Of a stretch of DNA of 46,648 bases, positions 15,142 through 43,751 are shown piece after piece (the stretch's first letter is position 1; each line of letters starts with the position of its first letter). A model generated the notes under the pieces. It ran no database searches. It saw only the letters and a list, made by a program, of their open reading frames with translations, and was not told the origin of the DNA. Made by a program: the position numbers and the translations under genes. The stretch is from Paracoccaceae bacterium (lineage in GTDB: Bacteria; Pseudomonadota; Alphaproteobacteria; Rhodobacterales; Rhodobacteraceae), in NCBI GenBank assembly GCA_029938175.1, contig JAPYON010000006.1, forward strand, positions 1 to 46,648. The letters run 5' to 3'.

Positions 15142-15170
15142 TTGATTGCATAAATACGCATATATAAATA
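15142..15170 (+). promoter_or_regulatory. Candidate sigma-70-type promoter for soeABC
   Basis: TTGATT (15142-15147) and TAAATA (15165-15170) are separated by 17 bases in an AT-rich stretch; an overlapping TATAAA gives 15-base spacing. It lies about 50 bases before the soeA ATG. This placement also argues against the longer in-frame soeA start at 15146. Confidence 0.4.
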
Positions 15171-15217
15171 TAAGACCATCAAGGATCACTAAATCAAACG
15201 GGAGGGCGGTCACAAAA

Positions 15218-18055
15218 ATGAGCAAGCATCACCAGCCACAACTCAATACTTCGCCGCACATCAGCGACGAAATTCGCCACACCACATGCTACATGTGCGC
15301 GTGTCGCTGCGGAATTAACGTCCACCTTCGCGACGGCAAAGTTGCCTATATCGAGGGCAACAAAGATCATCCGGTTAACCAAGGCGTGCTTTGCGCCAAG
15401 GGTTCTGCGGGCATCATGCAGCACTACGCACCCTCGCGCCTAAAGGCACCGATGAAGCGCGTTGGCGAGCGTGGCGAAGGCAAGTTCGAGGAAATTTCGT
15501 GGGACGAAGCCTATGAGATCGCCGCTGGCTGGTTGAAACCTATCCGCGAAAAATCCCCTGAAAAGTTGGCATTTTTCACTGGCCGCGATCAATCGCAGTC
15601 CTTCACAAGCTGGTGGGCACAGGCCTTCGGTACGCCGAACTACGCCGCCCACGGCGGTTTCTGTTCCGTTAACATGGCGGCTGGCGGCATCTATACGATG
15701 GGCGGCGCGTTCTGGGAATTCGGAGCACCCGATTGGGAGCACACTAAGTTATTCATGATCTTTGGCGTCGCCGAGGATCACGACTCCAACCCGATCAAAA
15801 TCGGACTGGGCAAGCTAAAAAAACGCGGTGCGAAAGTTATCGGTGTTAACCCAATTCGCTCGGGCTATAACGCGATTGCGGATGAGTGGGTCGGCATTAC
15901 GCCGGGTACGGATGGCTTATTTATCCTGTCGATGATTCACGAATTGCTGAAGTCCGGCAACGTCGATCTCGACTATCTGATTCGCTACACCAACATGCCG
16001 TTCTTGGTTAATCAGGACAAGAATAGCGACGAGCACGGCCTAATCCTGCGCGACGCTGGCGGCAAACAACTGGTCTGGGACCGCGTAAAAGACGCCCCTG
16101 CTGCTTGGGACGCGAAAGGCGTTAAGCCTGCGATGAAGGGTTCGTATGAAGTTGACGGCGTGCCTTGCACACCTGCCTTCATGCTGTTGGCCGACAAGTA
16201 TCTGGCCGATGAGTATAAACCTGAAGCTGTCGCCGATCGTTGTGGCATCCCTGCCGACCGGATCAAATCCATCGCTGCCGAACTTGCAAAAGTCGCTTTT
16301 GGCGAGCAGATCGTTCTGGATCGTCCATGGACAGACTTCCGTGGCGAAAAGCACGAGCAGATGATTGGTCGCCCTGTGTCCTTCCACGCGATGCGCGGTA
16401 TTTCGGCGCACTCCAACGGTTTCCAGACCGCGCGGGCATTGCACACGTTGCAAATCATGCTGGGCTCGGTCGAGGTTCCGGGTGGTTTCCGCTTTAAGCC
16501 GTCCTATCCAAAACCCGTTTCGGCACACCCGAAACCGCACCATGATGTGACCCCCGGCAAGCCGCTGAACGGCCCGCATCTGGGGTATCCTCGTGGGCCT
16601 GAAGATCTTGCGATTGATGCGGACGGTAAGGCCAAACGTATTGATAAAGCGTTTACATGGGAGAACCCGCTATCGGCGCACGGCCTGATGCATATGGTTA
16701 TTTCCAATGCGCATGCTGGCGATCCGTACAAAATCGACACGCTGTTTATGTATATGGCGAACATGTCGTGGAATTCGTCGATGAACACCAGCGGTGTGAT
16801 GGACATGCTGACGGACAAAGATGAGAACGGCGATTATGTAATCCCGCACATCATCTACTCCGATGCGTATTCGTCTGAAATGGTAGCGTTCTCGGATCTG
16901 ATATTCCCTGACACGACATATCTTGAGCGTCACGACTGTATTTCGTTGCTGGACCGACCGATTTGCGAGCCGGACGCGATTGCAGACAGCATCCGATGGC
17001 CTGTGGTAGAACCTGACCGCGATGTTCGCGGCTTCCAGACAGCACTTGTGCAGCTTGGCGCAAAACTCGGCCTGCCGGGTTTTGTCAACGAGGATGGCAC
17101 CGACAAGTTCGAGGATTACGCAGATTACATCGTGTCCCACGAGCGTCGCCCCGGCGTTGGCCCGCTGGCCGGTTTTCGTGGCAAGGATGGCAAAGGCATG
17201 GGTCGTGGTGAACCAAACCCGAACCAGATCCAAGCCTATATTGACAACGGCGGCTTCTGGATTGACCATATCCCCGAGGAAGCCTCCTACTTCAAACCGT
17301 GGAACATGGATTACCAGAACTATGCGGTCGAGCGCGGTCTTTACGACGCCGTTCAGCCCTATGTTTTCGATGTCTACCAAGAAACCATACAAAAGTTCCG
17401 CCTCGCGGCCGAGGGCAAAGGCGACATTCAACCGCCCGAGCATCTGCGTGAACAAGTTCACGCAAGCATGGACCCGTTGCCAACATGGTGGGAACCGTTT
17501 GAGCAAGCGCAGGTTGATAACAACGAATACCCCCACCACGCACTGACACAACGCCCTATGGCGATGTATCACAGCTGGGGTTCACAGAACGCATGGTTGC
17601 GCCAAATTCACGGCCACAACCCAATGTATGTGCCAACCGATATCTGGGAAGCGAACAACTTCGAAGATGGCGATTGGGCGAAAATCACTTCGTATCATGG
17701 CTCTATCACGGCGCCTGTTGCCTTGATGGAAGCGTTGAATTCCAACACCATCTGGACATGGAACGCGATTGGTAAGCGTAAGGGTGCGTGGGCGTTGCAG
17801 GATAATGCATCGGAAACCACCAAGGGCTTCTTACTGAACCACCTGATCCACGAACTGTTGCCCTCCAAGGGGGACGGTCAGCGCTGGGCGAACTCCGATC
17901 CGGTCACGGGTCAGGCGGCTTGGTTCGACCTTCGCGTGAAGATCGAAAAAACCGAGACTCCGTCGAACCTGCAATCGCAACCAAACATCGCCTCGCAGGA
18001 ATCTCCTGTTAGTCTCGGTCCCAAAAACGTTGAATACGGGAAGGAGTGGAAATGA
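15218..18055 (+). CDS. soeA: Sulfite dehydrogenase SoeA, molybdopterin catalytic subunit
   Basis: A 945-residue DMSO-reductase-superfamily enzyme. The N-terminal [4Fe-4S] site is Cys24, Cys27, Cys31 and Cys59 (CYMCACRCG, then GVLCAKG). GGFCSVN places Cys149 at the likely molybdenum-ligand position. No twin-arginine signal is visible, so the complex should face the cytoplasm. Length, sequence style and the soeB-soeC neighbours fit SoeABC, which oxidises sulfite to sulfate and passes electrons to quinone. The ATG at 15218 follows a GGGAGG site; an in-frame ATG at 15146 lies in the promoter. Polysulfide or thiosulfate reductase-type function is the main alternative. Confidence 0.85.
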   Translation: MSKHHQPQLNTSPHISDEIRHTTCYMCACRCGINVHLRDGKVAYIEGNKDHPVNQGVLCAKGSAGIMQHYAPSRLKAPMKRVGERGEGKFEEISWDEAYEIAAGWLKPIREKSPEKLAFFTGRDQSQSFTSWWAQAFGTPNYAAHGGFCSVNMAAGGIYTMGGAFWEFGAPDWEHTKLFMIFGVAEDHDSNPIKIGLGKLKKRGAKVIGVNPIRSGYNAIADEWVGITPGTDGLFILSMIHELLKSGNVDLDYLIRYTNMPFLVNQDKNSDEHGLILRDAGGKQLVWDRVKDAPAAWDAKGVKPAMKGSYEVDGVPCTPAFMLLADKYLADEYKPEAVADRCGIPADRIKSIAAELAKVAFGEQIVLDRPWTDFRGEKHEQMIGRPVSFHAMRGISAHSNGFQTARALHTLQIMLGSVEVPGGFRFKPSYPKPVSAHPKPHHDVTPGKPLNGPHLGYPRGPEDLAIDADGKAKRIDKAFTWENPLSAHGLMHMVISNAHAGDPYKIDTLFMYMANMSWNSSMNTSGVMDMLTDKDENGDYVIPHIIYSDAYSSEMVAFSDLIFPDTTYLERHDCISLLDRPICEPDAIADSIRWPVVEPDRDVRGFQTALVQLGAKLGLPGFVNEDGTDKFEDYADYIVSHERRPGVGPLAGFRGKDGKGMGRGEPNPNQIQAYIDNGGFWIDHIPEEASYFKPWNMDYQNYAVERGLYDAVQPYVFDVYQETIQKFRLAAEGKGDIQPPEHLREQVHASMDPLPTWWEPFEQAQVDNNEYPHHALTQRPMAMYHSWGSQNAWLRQIHGHNPMYVPTDIWEANNFEDGDWAKITSYHGSITAPVALMEALNSNTIWTWNAIGKRKGAWALQDNASETTKGFLLNHLIHELLPSKGDGQRWANSDPVTGQAAWFDLRVKIEKTETPSNLQSQPNIASQESPVSLGPKNVEYGKEWK

Positions 18056-18798
18056 CAACTTTACCACAATCCACCGAGAAAAAGCTCGGCCTAGTCATTG
18101 ATCTGGACACCTGCGTCGGCTGCCATGCTTGTGTGATTTCCTGTAAGGAATGGAACACAAGCAACTATGGTGCGCCGCTTTCAGACATGGATGCATACGG
18201 TGCGGAACCCGTCGGAACTTTCCTGAACCGTGTACATACGTTCGAGGTTAAGCAGGAAAACAAGCCGGCACAGGTAACGCATTTCCCGAAATCCTGTCTG
18301 CATTGCGAAGACGCCCCTTGCGTCACCGTTTGCCCCACGGGTGCCAGCTATAAACGTGTCGAAGACGGCATCGTTCTGGTCAACGAAAGCGACTGCATCG
18401 GTTGTGGTCTGTGCGCATGGTCCTGCCCATACGGAGCGCGTGAAATGGACGCCGCCGAGGGTGTAATGAAGAAATGCACACTATGTGTTGACCGAATTTA
18501 CAACGAGAACATCCCCGAAGAAGACCGCGTGCCTTCCTGCGTTCGCACCTGCCCCGCAGGCGCACGTCACTTCGGTGATTTCGCAGACCCTGAAAGCAAC
18601 GTGTCGATCCTGACCGCCGCGCGCGAAGGCTTCGATCTGATGCCCGAACAAGGTACCAAGCCAGTTAACAAATACCTGCCACCGCGTCCAAAAACAGACG
18701 TCGAGCAGATCGACATCCTCGGCCCCCTTTTAGCCCGTCAACCCGAAGAAACCGGTGGATTCCTCGGTTGGCTTGACCGTACATTGGAGAAACTCTGA
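18052..18798 (+). CDS. soeB: Sulfite dehydrogenase SoeB, iron-sulfur subunit
   Basis: The 248-residue ferredoxin-like protein carries four cysteine groups able to hold four [4Fe-4S] clusters: CVGCHACVISC, CLHCEDAPCVTVCP, CIGCGLCAWSCP and CTLC paired with CVRTCP. It relays electrons from SoeA to the membrane subunit. The ATG at 18052 overlaps the soeA stop as ATGA and follows AAGGAG; a GTG six bases earlier is less likely. No export signal is present, which agrees with a cytoplasmic complex. Confidence 0.9.
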   Translation: MTTLPQSTEKKLGLVIDLDTCVGCHACVISCKEWNTSNYGAPLSDMDAYGAEPVGTFLNRVHTFEVKQENKPAQVTHFPKSCLHCEDAPCVTVCPTGASYKRVEDGIVLVNESDCIGCGLCAWSCPYGAREMDAAEGVMKKCTLCVDRIYNENIPEEDRVPSCVRTCPAGARHFGDFADPESNVSILTAAREGFDLMPEQGTKPVNKYLPPRPKTDVEQIDILGPLLARQPEETGGFLGWLDRTLEKL

Positions 18799-19673
18799 TG
18801 CATCCAGCAATTTCAGTAATCATCTTCACCGCACTTTCCGGCCTTGGTTTCGGCATGATGGTGTTCCTCGGGCTTGGCATGCTGGACGTGTCCGGCTGGG
18901 TAGCGTTCATCTTCGTGGCCATCGCATATGCGCTGGCCGGCGGCGGTTTGCTATCTTCGCTTTTCCACCTCGGCCACCCCGAGCGGTTCCTCAAAGCCTT
19001 CACCCAATGGCGCTCAAGCTGGCTGTCGCGCGAAGGCGTGCTGTCGATGGCGGCGATGGGCGTTTTTGGCATCTATGCACTGCTGTGGATTTTCATGGAT
19101 AACCGTATCGAGTGGCTTGGCTACATCGCGGCATTCTTGTCTGTGTTAACCATCTTCAGCACCTCGATGATCTATGCACAGATGAAATCGGTCCCGCGTT
19201 GGCACACCCCAATGACCTCCGTTATGTATCTGATGTACGGTCTTGCCGGCGGCGCATTGCTAACTTCGCAAGTTGTTCTGGCAGGTTGGTTGATGCTGGC
19301 CCTCGCCATCGTGCAGATCACAACATGGGTTCTCGGGGACGGCGCATTCGCCAAAACTGGTTCCGACACGGGCACAGCCACAGGCCTTGGTTTCTTGGGT
19401 AAAGTCCGCCTTTTAGAGAAACCGCACACCGGCACCAACTACCTGATGAGCGAGATGATCCACGTGATCGGTCGCAAGCACATCATGAAGTTGCGGATCA
19501 TCGGCTTGGGTCTAGGCTCGCTTATTCCAGCCGTGTTGCTGCTGGCCCTGCCTGCCAGCCACCTGATCGCACTGGTTGTGATACTGGTCCACATGGTTGG
19601 CCTGTTCGTCCAACGCTGGTTGTTCTTCGCAGAAGCAGAACACGTTGTCGGCTTGTATTACGGCCAACGTTAA
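18798..19673 (+). CDS. soeC: Sulfite dehydrogenase SoeC, membrane anchor
   Basis: A 291-residue hydrophobic protein with about eight transmembrane helices, of the DmsC anchor family. The segment SLFHLGHPERFLKAFTQW after the second helix is the conserved DmsC-type signature. It anchors SoeAB and passes electrons to the quinone pool. The ATG overlaps the soeB stop by one base (TGATG), completing a tightly coupled three-gene operon. A hairpin with a T-rich tail follows. Confidence 0.9.
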   Translation: MHPAISVIIFTALSGLGFGMMVFLGLGMLDVSGWVAFIFVAIAYALAGGGLLSSLFHLGHPERFLKAFTQWRSSWLSREGVLSMAAMGVFGIYALLWIFMDNRIEWLGYIAAFLSVLTIFSTSMIYAQMKSVPRWHTPMTSVMYLMYGLAGGALLTSQVVLAGWLMLALAIVQITTWVLGDGAFAKTGSDTGTATGLGFLGKVRLLEKPHTGTNYLMSEMIHVIGRKHIMKLRIIGLGLGSLIPAVLLLALPASHLIALVVILVHMVGLFVQRWLFFAEAEHVVGLYYGQR

Positions 19674-35257: not shown

Positions 35258-36430
35258 CTATTGCAAATCGGCGAAAGCGGCCGCGATCCGTTTTACGGCT
35301 TCGGTGACCAGTTCACGACGGGTGGCGATGTTGAAGCGGAGGAAGTTCTCGCCACCTGTGCCGAACGTATCCCCTGAATTAGGTGCAACTTTCGCGATTT
35401 TCACCACACGATCCGTGAACTCTTCCTTAGTCATACCAGTGTCGGCGAAATTCACCCATGCCAGATAGGTCGCTTCAAGGTTCATCGAGCGGAGACCAGG
35501 AATGGCGTTGATACCTTCGTCAAATATACGCTTGTTTTCCGCCATATATTTGCGCCAGTCGTCCAGCCATTCCTCGCCACCGTTATAGGCGGCCTCAGCC
35601 ATGTGATAGCCAAAACGATTGGCGGATACTTTGCCTGCGCTCATAGTTGCGATATATTTTTTGCGAAGTGTTTTGTCAGAAATGATCGCATTACCGATGT
35701 GCGCCCCTGCGATATTGAAGGTTTTGGTTGTTGCGCTCATAATTACAAGGCGGTTGCGCACTTCCGGTGCGGCCAGCGCCAATATTGTGTGCTTGTTGCC
35801 CGCATAAACCAGATCATGGTGGATTTCGTCCGAGACCAGTATCAGGTCATGCTTGATGCAGAACGCCGCGACGGCCTGTAGTTCCTCAAGCGACCAGACG
35901 CGTCCGCCCGGATTATGCGGCGAACAGAAAATCATCAGCTTTTCGTCGCCCTGAAGCTGGGCTTCCAATGCGTCGAGGTCCAACTCGTATCGGCCGTTGT
36001 TGTTGACCAATTCGCCTTCAACAATCCGGCGATTATTCGCATTCAGGAGCGAGGCGAAAGCATGATAAACAGGTGAGAACAGAATTACGCCGTCGTTTTC
36101 CTGTGTGTAAGCCTGCACAGCCAAGGCAATTCCGTTGTTCACACCGTTAACGCTTAGTATCCACTTGGGGTCAACTTTCCACCCATGACGGCGGTCCATC
36201 CAGTTGCAGATCGCTTCCAAGTAGCTGCGCTGGTCGCCGTAATATGTGTAAACACTGCCATCGACCAGTTCCAGAATCGCATCGGACACGCATTTCGGAG
36301 ACCGGAAATCCATATCTGCCACCCACATGGCGATGCCTTCATCGGCACTGATGCCGTAAACGCGCTCCATATTATCCCATTTATCCGAATGAGTGTTGCG
36401 GCGGTCGGTTTTTTCGTCAAAGTTGTTCAT
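35258..36430 (-). CDS. PatB/MalY-type cystathionine beta-lyase (C-S lyase)
   Basis: The 390-residue fold-type I PLP enzyme has WVADMDFRSPKCVSDAILE near the start, the PHNPGGRVWSLEEL stretch, VSDEIHHDLVYAG and the PLP-binding Lys236 in SATTKTFNIAGAHIG. These features mark the MalY/PatB branch rather than aspartate aminotransferases. It should split cysteine conjugates or cystathionine to a thiol, pyruvate and ammonia. A general aminotransferase role is possible but less likely. It is divergent from def. Confidence 0.88.
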   Translation of the reverse strand: MNNFDEKTDRRNTHSDKWDNMERVYGISADEGIAMWVADMDFRSPKCVSDAILELVDGSVYTYYGDQRSYLEAICNWMDRRHGWKVDPKWILSVNGVNNGIALAVQAYTQENDGVILFSPVYHAFASLLNANNRRIVEGELVNNNGRYELDLDALEAQLQGDEKLMIFCSPHNPGGRVWSLEELQAVAAFCIKHDLILVSDEIHHDLVYAGNKHTILALAAPEVRNRLVIMSATTKTFNIAGAHIGNAIISDKTLRKKYIATMSAGKVSANRFGYHMAEAAYNGGEEWLDDWRKYMAENKRIFDEGINAIPGLRSMNLEATYLAWVNFADTGMTKEEFTDRVVKIAKVAPNSGDTFGTGGENFLRFNIATRRELVTEAVKRIAAAFADLQ

Positions 36431-36517: not shown

Positions 36518-37045
36518 ATGCCCCGCATGACATTACGAAACATCCTGTTACACCCAGATCCACGCCTGAAAAAGGCGTGTGAACCTGTGGCTGAAGTAAA
36601 CGCGAAAATCCGCGATTTGGCGAACGATATGCTGGAAACGATGTACGACGCGCCCGGCGTTGGCTTGGCTGGTCCGCAGGTTGGTGTGCTGAAACGGATA
36701 TTCGTGATTGATTGCGCAGAAAAGGATGCCGCACCCGACCCAATGATCCTGATTAATCCCGAGATCACATGGGTTTCCGAGGAGCTGAACACTTACGACG
36801 AAGGATGTCTTTCCATTCCCGAAATTTACGAGCCTGTAACTCGCCCGGAAATGGTTCGGATGTCGTATCTTGATGCCGATGGCAAACTGCACGAAGACGA
36901 ATTCGAGGCGCTTCACGCCACCGCCGTTCAACACGAGCTGGACCATTTGGACGGCATCCTGTTCATCGACTATATTAGCAAGATGAAACGCGAGATGATC
37001 ACCAACAAGATGAAAAAGCTGAAGAAAGAACTTGCCCGTGGCTAG
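36518..37045 (+). CDS. def: Peptide deformylase
   Basis: The 175-residue protein has all three PDF motifs: GVGLAGPQVG, EGCLSIPE (zinc ligand Cys97) and HELDH (residues 139-143, with catalytic Glu140). It removes the formyl group from nascent N-terminal methionine. An alternative ATG nine bases later (36527) would shorten it by three residues. It heads the def – def-like – fmt cluster in which each gene overlaps the next, so formylation and deformylation are expressed together. Confidence 0.96.
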   Translation: MPRMTLRNILLHPDPRLKKACEPVAEVNAKIRDLANDMLETMYDAPGVGLAGPQVGVLKRIFVIDCAEKDAAPDPMILINPEITWVSEELNTYDEGCLSIPEIYEPVTRPEMVRMSYLDADGKLHEDEFEALHATAVQHELDHLDGILFIDYISKMKREMITNKMKKLKKELARG

Positions 37046-37541
37046 GCCTTTCCTGATGTATCCCGACAAGCGTCTGCGCACGGAGTGCGCGCCTGTCGAG
37101 ACGATTGACGACGGCGTTCGCGCGATTTGGGATGAAATGCTGGATGCGATGTATGGGATGCCGGGCGTTGGCTTGGCAGCCTCACAGATCGGAGTGATGC
37201 AACGGCTGGCAGTTGTGGATTGTTTCGGCACGCATAATGCGGCGATCCGCATGGCGAACCCTGAAGTCCTGCACGCCTCCGCCAAGATGAACGAGCATGA
37301 CGAGGCAAGCCCGAATCTGCCCGGTCTGTCCGGCAAAATAACTCGCCCGCGCGCAGTGACGATTCGATTCATGGACGAGAACGGCGAGATGGTCGAAAAG
37401 GACTTCGTGCATATGTGGGCAACTTCGGTGCAGCACCAAATTGATCATTTGAATGGCAGGCTGTTCATCACGCATCTAAGCCCTGTGAAGCGCAAGAGGC
37501 TGCTGGCCAAGCACGCCAAGAACATGAAACGGAGGGGCTGA
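37038..37541 (+). CDS. Peptide deformylase paralog lacking catalytic residues
   Basis: A 167-residue PDF-fold protein with motif 1 intact ([10 protein letters not shown]). Motif 2 reads EASPNLPG instead of EGCLS, so the zinc-ligand Cys is missing. Motif 3 reads HQIDH, with Gln134 in place of the catalytic Glu. The two zinc histidines remain. It should be inactive as a deformylase and may bind peptides or ribosomes, or form dimers with Def. The GTG at 37038 overlaps the def stop; an alternative TTG lies at 37032. The rest of the frame is undamaged, so this is a kept paralog rather than random decay. Confidence 0.85.
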
Positions 37542-38449
37542 TGCGTTTGATATTCATGGGCACGCCGGAATTCTCGGTCTCGGTTCTGAATCAACTTGTC
37601 AGCGTGGGGCACGAGATTGCCTGCGTCTATTCCCAACCGCCGCGCCCCGCTGGTCGCGGCAAGAAACCGCGGCCTTCTGCTGTGCAAAAAAGGGCCGAGG
37701 AGTTGGGGTTGGAGGTGCGCACTCCGCTGAATTTCAAAGATGCTGCCGAACTACGGGCGTTTATGGACATTAACGCCGATGCGGCGGTCGTTGTTGCGTA
37801 TGGTCTGATCTTGCCGCAACCGGTTCTAGATGCGCCTCGGCTTGGGTGCTTTAACATCCACGCCTCGCTTTTGCCGCGCTGGCGCGGGGCTGCACCTATT
37901 CAGCGGGCTATTATGGCGGGCGACGCAGAAACCGGCGTTTACATTATGCAGATGGAGGCAGGGCTGGATACTGGTCCGGTTTTGATGCGCGATGTGACGG
38001 CAATTGAGGCGGGTGATACGGCAGCAAGTCTACATGACCGTCTTGCCGATATGGGCTCGCACCTGATGGTTAACGCCTTGGCAGACCTTCCGAACCTGAC
38101 GCCCACGACTCAATCTCTGGAGGGTGTCACTTATGCCGCCAAGATAGACAAAGCCGAGGCCAAGATCGACTGGTCACAGCCCGCCGCGCAGGTTGACCGT
38201 TTGATCCGCGGCATCTCACCCTTCCCCGGCGCATGGTTTATGCTGGACGGACAGCGGGTGAAGGCGCTGTTATCGGAGTGCGTGGGCGGAAAAGGTCCGG
38301 CAGGCGTTGCGGTTAACGATACGTTAACCATTGCTTGTGGTGAAGGATCGATCCGGTTGCTTAAGATTCAAAAAGCTGGAAAAGGGCCACAAACGGCGGA
38401 TGTGTTCTTGACGGGAACCAAGGTTCCGGCGGGATCAATTCTGGAATAA
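37541..38449 (+). CDS. fmt: Methionyl-tRNA formyltransferase
   Basis: The 302-residue enzyme has [19 protein letters not shown] at the start, the formyl-folate site in [20 protein letters not shown] ([11 protein letters not shown]), and the C-terminal tRNA-binding domain. It formylates initiator Met-tRNA using 10-formyltetrahydrofolate. The ATG overlaps the def-like stop by one base (TGATG). The gene is intact, but the next operon downstream is entirely broken. Confidence 0.96.
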
Positions 38450-38478
38450 GAGATTGCCCGTTGGCGGTTGCGGATATA

Positions 38479-38497
38479 CCCTCGATGCAAACGAGGG
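38479..38497 (+). promoter_or_regulatory. Hairpin that includes the nthA ribosome-binding site
   Basis: CCCTCG-ATGCAAA-CGAGGG is a perfect six-pair stem. Its 3' arm carries the GAGGGG ribosome-binding site, seven bases before the nthA ATG at 38505. In the RNA this would hide the site and limit translation. Confidence 0.35.
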
Positions 38498-38504
38498 GAT
38501 AACC

Positions 38505-39114
38505 ATGCCACACGATCACCACGACCATGACCACGATCATTCGCACAGCCTGCTGCCATCAGACCCCGAGCTTCGAGTACGCGCACTGGAAAGCATACTA
38601 GTAAACAAAGGTCTGGTTGACCCCGAAACGCTCAACACCCTGATTGACACTTATGAAAACAAGGTCGGCCCCAAGAATGGCGCTCGAGTCGTGGGTGGAC
38701 GCCGATTTTCGTAACCGGTTGCTAGAGAACGCGCCCAAGGCCATCGCCGAATTGGATTATTCAGGGCGACAAGGCGAGCATATGGTGGCCGTCGAGAACA
38801 CGCCTGAACAACACAACATGGTCGTTTGTACCCTTTGCAGTTGCTATCCGTGGCCGGTTCTGGGCATCCCACCCGCCTGGTATAAATCTGACGCATATCG
38901 CAGCCGTGCGGTGCGCGAGCCGCGTAAAGTCTTGGCTGACTTTGGCGTGACTTTATTACCAGACCAAAACGTCCGCGTGTGGGATTCGACTGCCGAGGTT
39001 CGTTATCTGGTAATCCCAATGCGCCCCGAAGGCACTAGGGGTATGACCGAGGAACAACTGGCCGAGATCGTCAGCCGTGACAGCATGATCGGCACCGGCT
39101 TGGTGACGATATGA
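38505..39114 (+). pseudogene. nthA: Nitrile hydratase alpha subunit, frameshifted
   Basis: The first frame begins MPHDHHDHDHDHSHSLLP, a His/Asp-rich head, and runs through [14 protein letters not shown] before going out of frame at about 38681-38692 and stopping at 38714. Another frame then carries [19 protein letters not shown], the metal-binding CTLCSC at 38827-38844, and [10 protein letters not shown] to the end. The missing bases fit an 11-base deletion between two TCGTGG copies. CTLCSC with Thr marks the cobalt type. The product would have hydrated nitriles to amides. The metal site itself is intact, so the lesion is recent or is a sequencing error. Confidence 0.85.
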
Positions 39115-39800
39115 ACCGCGTACATGACATGGGTGGTCGTATAGGTGACGGTCCGGTTCCTGAAGTTGATGCGCAAGACATGTTCCACAGAGATTGGGAA
39201 AAGCGAGCGATGGCGATGACCCTTGCCACCGGAGCGCTGGGGAAATGGAATATCGACGCATCACGTCATGCCCGCGAATTGCTGGGGCCCGAGGATTACC
39301 GAAAGTTCAGTTATTACTAAAAATGGGTTTCTGCGTTAACCGATATTCTGGTGCAAACCGGACTTCTGGACGAGGTTGATCTGAAAAACGTGATTGCGTC
39401 GGACACACAACCCGTGCCTTTGAATGAAAAAGCGTTGCGCCCGCAAAACGTTCTGGCAGCGATGGGCGCACATGTGCCCTACACCCGCGAGGTTGGCCCG
39501 ACCGCCCTGTTCGCAATTGGCGACTATGTGCGGACGGCAAGTCAAAACACCAACCGTTTCGTAAAAGGCGGGCATTCCCGACTGCCCGAATACGCTATGG
39601 ATTGTGTTGGGCGCATCGTTGATCTGCATGGAACCCACGTGTTGCCTGACAGTAACGCGCACTTCAAAGGCGAAAATCCTGAACCGCTTTACGGCGTATA
39701 GTTCACCGCTGAAACCCTATGGGGCGTCACGACAGAGGGCGTTGGGGACACCATCGTCCTCGACCTTTGGCAAAGCTATCTAGAGGCGGAAGGCGAATGA
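39111..39800 (+). pseudogene. nthB: Nitrile hydratase beta subunit, two in-frame stops
   Basis: The start [16 protein letters not shown] is the standard beta-subunit opening, and its ATG overlaps the nthA stop as ATGA. A TAA at 39318-39320 interrupts after RKFSYY, where Glu is expected. The same frame continues with KWVSALTDILVQTGLLDEV to a TAG at 39699-39701 after PEPLYGV, where Gln is expected, then FTAETLWGV to the final TGA at 39798. Both changes are single-base substitutions. No frame change occurs along the whole 230 codons. The beta subunit is needed for the active heterodimer. Confidence 0.88.
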
Positions 39801-40125
39801 ATATTCTCACCACGCCGGCCAATTTCAAGGCCCCATGGCACGGGCAAGCCTTTGCGCTTGCGGTGACCTTAAACGAGGCGGGTGTGTTTGGTTGGCCGGA
39901 ATGGACACAGGCCTTTGGCGAAAGCCTCGACACAATGCGTAAGGACACGCCGCTGGACGGGTCGGATGATTATTATACCGCGTGGATCGCGACGCTGGAG
40001 CGGATTTTGTGTGATCGCGATGTTGTTGCTGCGGATGCACTGGCGCAGATGAAAAAAACTGGGCCGAGGCTTTTAACACCACTCCGCACGGCAACCCAGT
40101 GAAACCGAAGATGGCAGGCGAGTAG
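39797..40125 (+). pseudogene. Nitrile hydratase accessory protein (activator), 3'-frameshifted
   Basis: The ATG overlaps the nthB end (ATGA). APWHGQAFALAVTLNEAG, FGWPEWTQAFGESL and DYYTAWIATLERIL match the beta-like activator that loads cobalt into the alpha subunit. After ALAQMKK a run of seven A residues shifts the frame, and the gene stops early at 40102. One more A restores WAEAFNTTPHGNPVKPK to a TAG at 40125; TPHGxPV is the expected family ending. Loss of the tail may be tolerated, so this is the mildest of the three lesions. Confidence 0.7.
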
Positions 40126-40195: not shown

Positions 40196-40435
40196 GTGAA
40201 TTTAGTATTTATTGTTATTGTTGGAACGGCGGCAGGATTTATCGTCACGCGCATGTTCAAACTTGATATTGGCGTGCTGCCAACTGTCGCTATTGGCGTT
40301 CTTGGCGCCCTAATTGGTGGCCTTGTGTTGCGTCTGTTGCTGGCCGCACCAGGTATTTTCGCTGGCCTTCTGGGCGCAATTTTGGGCGCGGCGCTGCTAA
40401 TCTGGCTGTATCAGTACTATTTCGGCAAAACGTAG
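40196..40435 (+). CDS. Small membrane protein, transglycosylase-associated (GlsB/YeaQ/YmgE) family
   Basis: A 79-residue hydrophobic protein with three membrane helices and glycine-rich spacing (VGTAAGFIVTRMF, GVLGALIGGLVLRLLL, LLGAILGAALLIWLYQYY), the YeaQ/GlsB pattern. It starts at a GTG, chosen because a strong CGGAGG lies five bases before it. Its function is not known, although members are often stress-induced. It converges with rnhA, nine bases apart. Confidence 0.7.
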   Translation: MNLVFIVIVGTAAGFIVTRMFKLDIGVLPTVAIGVLGALIGGLVLRLLLAAPGIFAGLLGAILGAALLIWLYQYYFGKT

Positions 40436-43157: not shown

Positions 43158-43751
43158 ATGATGAAAACCGTAAAACACCGCAATACGACCCATTATTGCC
43201 TGATTTCTCTAGGTGCGAACCTGCCGTCCGCCACTGGAACGGCGCTTGAAACACTAGAGAAGTCGCTAGGGTTGTTTCCGTCGGAATCGTTTCAGATTGA
43301 CCGAATCAGTAAATGGTTTTCCACACCAGCCTTTCCAAAAGGTTCAGGACCGGACTTCGTTAACGGTGCAATTAGAATTCAGACGACGCTAGAGCCGGGC
43401 GGAGTGATGTCCGCCCTACACCGGATCGAGGCCCAACTGGGCCGCACCCGTGAAAACCGTTGGGAACCCCGCCTGTGCGACCTTGATCTGATCGCATACG
43501 ACAATCAGATCTTGCCCGATCTGGCCACATTCCAACGCTGGAATGCCCTTGATCCGGCTAAGCAGAAAACAGAAACACCCGATCAACTGATCCTGCCGCA
43601 TCCGCGCTTGCAAGACCGGTCGTTCGTGCTGGTCCCGCTGCACGACATCGCGCCCGACTGGCGGCATCCGATCACGGGAATCACCGTTTCCGAAATGCTG
43701 GGGGCCATTTCGCCCGAAAAATTGGCCGAAATAACCGAAATAAGCGCCTAG
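43158..43751 (+). CDS. folK: 2-amino-4-hydroxy-6-hydroxymethyldihydropteridine diphosphokinase
   Basis: The 197-residue HPPK has SLGANLPSATGTALETLEKS at the start, the ATP/metal motif RENRWEPRLCDLDLIAYD and the later LPHPRLQDRSFVLVPLHDI. It pyrophosphorylates hydroxymethyldihydropterin in folate synthesis. Several ATG codons lie at the start (43158, 43161), and the family homology begins about 14 residues in, so the exact start is uncertain. It precedes rpoZ by 87 bases. Confidence 0.93.
   Translation: MMKTVKHRNTTHYCLISLGANLPSATGTALETLEKSLGLFPSESFQIDRISKWFSTPAFPKGSGPDFVNGAIRIQTTLEPGGVMSALHRIEAQLGRTRENRWEPRLCDLDLIAYDNQILPDLATFQRWNALDPAKQKTETPDQLILPHPRLQDRSFVLVPLHDIAPDWRHPITGITVSEMLGAISPEKLAEITEISA

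Follow-up and report, generated by a model that had tools for sequence, protein, structure and literature searches.

The window, a stretch of 46,648 nucleotides from the genome of a Paracoccaceae bacterium, carries at positions 38505-40125 the alpha, beta and activator genes of nitrile hydratase, in that order. To judge from its sequence, the locus is by origin a cobalt-type nitrile hydratase operon. Its lesions were called by alignment to two intact operons, those of G011 (same genus, same site) and G009 (operon at another site, with fmt of that genome on another contig). The features of the locus are as follows.

37541-38449, + strand: fmt (presumably methionyl-tRNA formyltransferase), intact upstream flank; 302 aa, with 79% identity to fmt of G011, and open in all aligned members of the genus
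38450-38504, + strand: spacer from fmt to alpha, without mp1; like the fmt-mp1 leader of relatives
38505-38714, + strand: 5' part of alpha, 69 codons, now stopping at TAA 38712-38714 (NHase_alpha, E 6.5e-10)
38644-39114, + strand: 3' part of alpha, a 156-codon open frame from TTG (Pfam NHase_alpha, E 1.6e-72)
~38688-38691, + strand: lesion 1, frameshift in alpha at the junction where 11 nt were deleted (alignment with G011 and G009)
38827-38844, + strand: CTLCSC metal-site codons, intact in translation
39111-39800, + strand: beta gene, interrupted (TIGR03888 match with one TAG and one TAA)
39318-39320, + strand: lesion 2, TAA in beta (alignment; profile search)
39699-39701, + strand: lesion 3, TAG in beta (alignment; profile search)
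39797-40102, + strand: activator as now read (TIGR03889); the pre-lesion frame would stop at 40123-40125
40052-40058, + strand: lesion 4, A7 run in the activator, one nt shorter than the frame of relatives (alignment)
40196-40435, + strand: mp2, small membrane gene, intact downstream flank; 75.6% identical to G011, and just below the Transgly_assoc cut-off (24.9 of 25.3 bits)

Identity and lesions of the operon

Every piece of the operon is recognised by Pfam and NCBIfam. The alpha remnant scores 241.5 bits, short of the 249.85 required by TIGR01323. It matches the sequences of 35 distinct solved structures; 1v29_A is the best of them, and chains named Co-type are among the best. The two beta pieces match NHase_beta_N (E 1.6e-25) and NHase_beta_C (E 2.1e-14) in Pfam, the beta gene reaches 206.9 bits against TIGR03888 (cut-off 152.2) and the activator 86.2 bits against TIGR03889 (cut-off 46). 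The CTLCSC motif of the alpha remnant, which we take to be the cobalt-type metal site, is unbroken. Both ATGA overlaps are kept, at 39111-39114 (alpha/beta) and 39797-39800 (beta/activator), and the alpha/beta overlap is also present in the intact operons of relatives. The original prediction of three recognisable genes with ATGA couplings and an intact CTLCSC site is borne out by these matches. In gene order, ATGA overlaps, CTLCSC motif and family scores the locus is like the cobalt-type nthA-nthB-activator operon (EC 4.2.1.84) of Rhodobacteraceae, but it differs in that each gene in the window carries at least one frameshift or stop. Identity to G011 is 75% for the main piece of alpha and 62.6% for beta, compared with 79% for fmt.

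Alpha is 11 nt shorter than in G011 and G009, as had been predicted; its first part ends at the TAA at 38712 and the remainder is open in another frame. The two beta stops, TAA at 39318 and TAG at 39699 (codons 70 and 197 of 229), stand where both G011 and G009 have a Glu codon. They were recovered independently of the alignment by a genome-wide profile search, whose beta match contains one stop of each kind. In the activator, the A7 run is one nt shorter than in G011 and G009, and the gene now ends at TGA 40100-40102. Since this lesion is confined to about the last 22 of 108 codons (the last fifth, with ~86 of the 108 unchanged), it alone may not abolish function, and by itself might be mild. 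Uninterrupted alpha and beta frames are absent, owing to the frameshift in the one and the two stops in the other, and the disabling lesions are lacking in the orthologous copy, the operon of G011 being intact at the same site. The lesion coordinates first given were correct. The view that the operon is dead, with separate hits on every gene and several events rather than one, agrees with four lesions across three genes. The checks proposed with it, alignment with intact relatives and a search of sister genomes, returned the intact same-site operon of G011 and confirmed the lesions.

The alpha deletion had also been placed between two copies of TCGTGG; this is not demonstrable, and only one copy exists today. 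Among 83 intact relatives the longest repeat at the 11-nt spacing measures 1-3 bases in 72, 4 bases in 6 and 5 bases in 5. The direct-repeat mechanism amounts to a guess about an ancestral sequence.

Genomic neighbourhood and distribution of the hydratase

The window is collinear with G011 over 30.2-46.6 kb. Four lesions lie in approximately 540 operon codons, while 15 flanking genes, with 4,161 codons in all, are free of internal stops. These 15 had been picked as open frames, and agreement in length is therefore the better evidence: 12 are within 4 residues of the G011 length. Among the remaining three, the G011 copies of ispH and a methyltransferase were pieced together across a masked stretch, and that of spoT has 637 residues against 707 here. 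The gene at 43158-43751 (197 residues; 126 in G011) was excluded from the 15. When 30 window proteins were compared with NCBIfam, 28 matched some family and two matched none.

Two adjacent genes before fmt (36518-37541), about 40% alike and both conserved in G011, look like what we take to be two peptide deformylases. A molybdopterin oxidoreductase-like trio at 15146-19673 comprises a 969-aa protein with weak scores to named subunits only, an iron-sulfur subunit and a 291-aa protein without an NCBIfam match. The assembly consists of 216 contigs and is 98.4% complete and 0.65% contaminated. At 2.13 Mb the genome is the smallest of the eight in the genus that pass the completeness and contamination filter, and the G+C content of the window is 53.9%. 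Streamlined roseobacter clusters are described in a passage of one paper as having a G+C content under 40% (PMC12661815). Classical streamlining was rejected here on that G+C content, despite the small genome.

PF02979 matches seven of the 13 genomes of the genus; five of these are without stops and two, the window genome and G003, are broken. Two of the six genomes without a match are less than 90% complete. In the window genome PF02979 matches only the two pieces of the broken alpha. No second hydratase was found in this 98.4% complete genome, which suggests that the cell would most likely make no nitrile hydratase. Stops in beta are seen in no other genome of the genus with a full operon.

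A second hydratase type adjoins murA in G008 and G012 and is broken in G003; none was found in the 1.5 kb beside murA in the window genome, G007 and G009, or in 0.8 kb in G011. The broken copy of G003 (L122, G003:C19, 3745-4527) has three TGA and one TAG inside the alpha match, together with frame breaks; its beta match breaks off after about 57 residues, and no activator turned up. Like the locus described here it is a broken hydratase operon, but most of beta and the activator are gone there, whereas here all three genes are almost full length. On sequence grounds the G003 loss is an independent one, of another hydratase type, at another locus and by another route. Amidase-signature genes are present in all 13 genomes, including the window genome, and are uninformative. 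PF13816, a family for a nitrile source, matched none of the 13 and none of the controls either, so that its absence carries no weight. Neither result speaks for or against the loss of nitrile use first proposed.

When named genomes were scanned with alpha as query, at least 517 related places were confirmed, and the best 80 of these, with 11 from the genome search, form a survey set of 91 loci. Among these 91 (the best 80 of at least 517, plus 11) alpha is interrupted in none, and in eight the match to beta or to the activator continues beyond the stop codon of a frame of normal length. Three of the loci are cut at contig ends. Because the loci were chosen by their alpha match, the survey leans to intact operons. 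At one of them, L087 of Bradyrhizobium, the activator lies ~800 bases beyond beta and not close by.

In G011 the operon sits between mp1 and mp2, two small membrane genes. The order fmt-mp1-mp2 without an intervening hydratase was found in G003, G004, G006, G008 and G012 of the genus and in G013, G014, G017 and G021 of the family. G007, G009 and G010 showed mp1 alone, G015 mp2 alone, and G018 neither; the contig of G001 ends too early to show them. The mp1 gene adjoins fmt in 13 of the 17 genomes compared and is missing in the window genome, where the spacer resembling the fmt-mp1 leader of relatives now stands directly before the dead alpha. A search for mp1 elsewhere in the window genome, with no positive control of its own, gave no match. 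If mp1 was deleted, the events would number five. The fmt tree pairs the window genome with G011, with modest support (82/85), and a single insertion of the operon in their common ancestor would be the simplest reading.

Selection and timing of the decay

Residues common to at least 97% of the intact relatives (83 relatives in the case of alpha and beta, and 60 in that of the activator) were regarded as near-invariant. Outside the lesions, 3 of 140 such residues are changed in the window (alpha 1/78, beta 2/39, activator 0/23), and G011 shows changes at 1/81, 0/39 and 0/23, respectively. The test is weak evidence of little loss, because the other intact relatives tested themselves change 0-6 of ~80 in alpha and 0-3 in beta.

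A branch codon model (518 codons, 5 sequences) put dN/dS at 0.092 for the window branch and at 0.074 for the other branches, a difference that is not significant (twice the log-likelihood difference, 0.27). A dN/dS of 1 on the window branch was rejected (14.0). With G011 as the marked branch the values were 0.053 and 0.090 (2.0). Taken gene by gene, a dN/dS of 1 on the window branch was rejected by alpha (24.3) and by beta (9.0, where the estimates of 0.002-0.003 are degenerate), but not by the activator (0.19). It may be that the operon was lost too recently for dN/dS to be visibly raised.

When a final neutral stretch was allowed on the window branch, its best length was zero, and lengths above ~0.15 substitutions per codon were disfavoured, beside a constrained part of ~0.8-1.2 substitutions per codon; these values are bounds and not dates, because synonymous sites are saturated. 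The bound for the G011 branch, used as a control, was tighter (~0.06-0.08). A neutral tail of 0.15 corresponds to ~80 substitutions, of which 2.7 would be expected to create a stop (3.4% of random substitutions do so), and the two stops seen fit this figure. Selection therefore held over most of the branch, and any relaxation came late. The relaxed selection originally proposed can thus describe no more than a late, short phase; for the branch as a whole dN/dS is 0.092, a value of 1 is rejected and the neutral tail is bounded at ~0.15. The decay of the operon looks recent.

Counted against G009 as the outgroup, alpha has 12 changes in the window and 11 in G011, beta 23 and 23, and the activator 9 and 5. 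Faster evolution of the lineage was rejected: in the 15 flanking genes the window has 267 changes and G011 has 277 (p 0.70, outgroup G012). Single flanking genes differ, with fmt (29 vs 8) and ispH (15 vs 5) faster here and spoT (30 vs 45) slower. The PatB-family gene at 35258-36430 reverses by outgroup, with 24 vs 68 changes when G012 is used and 70 vs 40 with G003; it may therefore have a mixed history, and the reversal suggests recombination or a paralogue in one genome.

Fate of the operon and its significance

The following account is very probable as a whole. A cobalt-type operon would have been inserted between two small membrane-protein genes in the common ancestor with G011. Within the limits set by saturated synonymous sites, purifying selection then kept it for the greater part of the period after the two diverged. 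Recently it was inactivated by at least four separate mutations over its three genes; the neighbouring mp1 is missing as well, probably through deletion, and most likely no hydratase is made. In this genus, where the enzyme is patchy, independent losses number at least two, this one included. The account is supported because the lesions are set against an intact same-site copy and because the flanks are open and collinear with G011. The operon is a case of ordinary pseudogenisation of a patchily distributed enzyme.

That some or all of the lesions are sequencing, assembly or binning errors, with the operon intact in the living cell, is very unlikely. The assembly is fragmented and one lesion sits in a homopolymer run, but four lesions of three kinds crowd into the operon with none in the 15 flanks, the genome is nearly complete with little contamination, and a second A7 run, at 15817, lies within an open gene. 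It is highly improbable that the lesions are real and the operon is still partly working, the activator being restored by slippage at A7 or alpha being made as two overlapping pieces. Such a product would draw on an alpha remnant that keeps its metal site in an open frame with a possible TTG start, and on an activator that keeps its family score; against this, beta is stopped at two places, no other alpha gene was found to pair with, and no other full-operon genome of the genus has stops in beta.

A long-dead relic, drifting through the greater part of its separate history from G011, is hardly credible. The number of lesions, the loss of mp1 and the low identity of beta to G011 relative to that of fmt would suit great age, but a dN/dS of 1 is rejected, the fit worsens by 5.6 log units when the neutral tail is set to 0.3 substitutions per codon, and with G009 as outgroup the changes are equal on both sides. 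It is also conceivable, though unlikely, that the species is still polymorphic, with working and dead alleles coexisting and the dead one favoured since the shareable products of a costly cobalt enzyme come from neighbours. If so, the decay described here and the parallel decay in G003 would reflect ongoing selection for loss and not drift. Recent, ordinary pseudogenisation is the reading preferred here.

Among the titles listed by searches of the nitrile hydratase literature, none concerned the decay of this operon. A truncated beta is mentioned in passing, in a passage of one paper, for Roseobacter sp. CCS2 (PMC3323583), a roseobacter hydratase with a damaged beta that is alike by that mention and not by sequence. 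According to a passage of another study, two of the species it compares, both of Thalassobius, lack nitrile hydratase (PMC5770400). The present case leaves existing knowledge of gene decay unchanged, and offers a clean example of the patchy loss of a metalloenzyme, with a relative that has the operon intact at the same site, and with another, independent loss within the genus. Passages in roseobacter papers tie the enzyme to auxin synthesis from indole-3-acetonitrile (PMC3230580, PMC12114110), and a table extract lists a beta-gene transposon mutant of Phaeobacter inhibens beside indoleacetamide hydrolase mutants (PMC5148602). Given this link to the auxin route, such losses may bear on which marine bacteria keep it.
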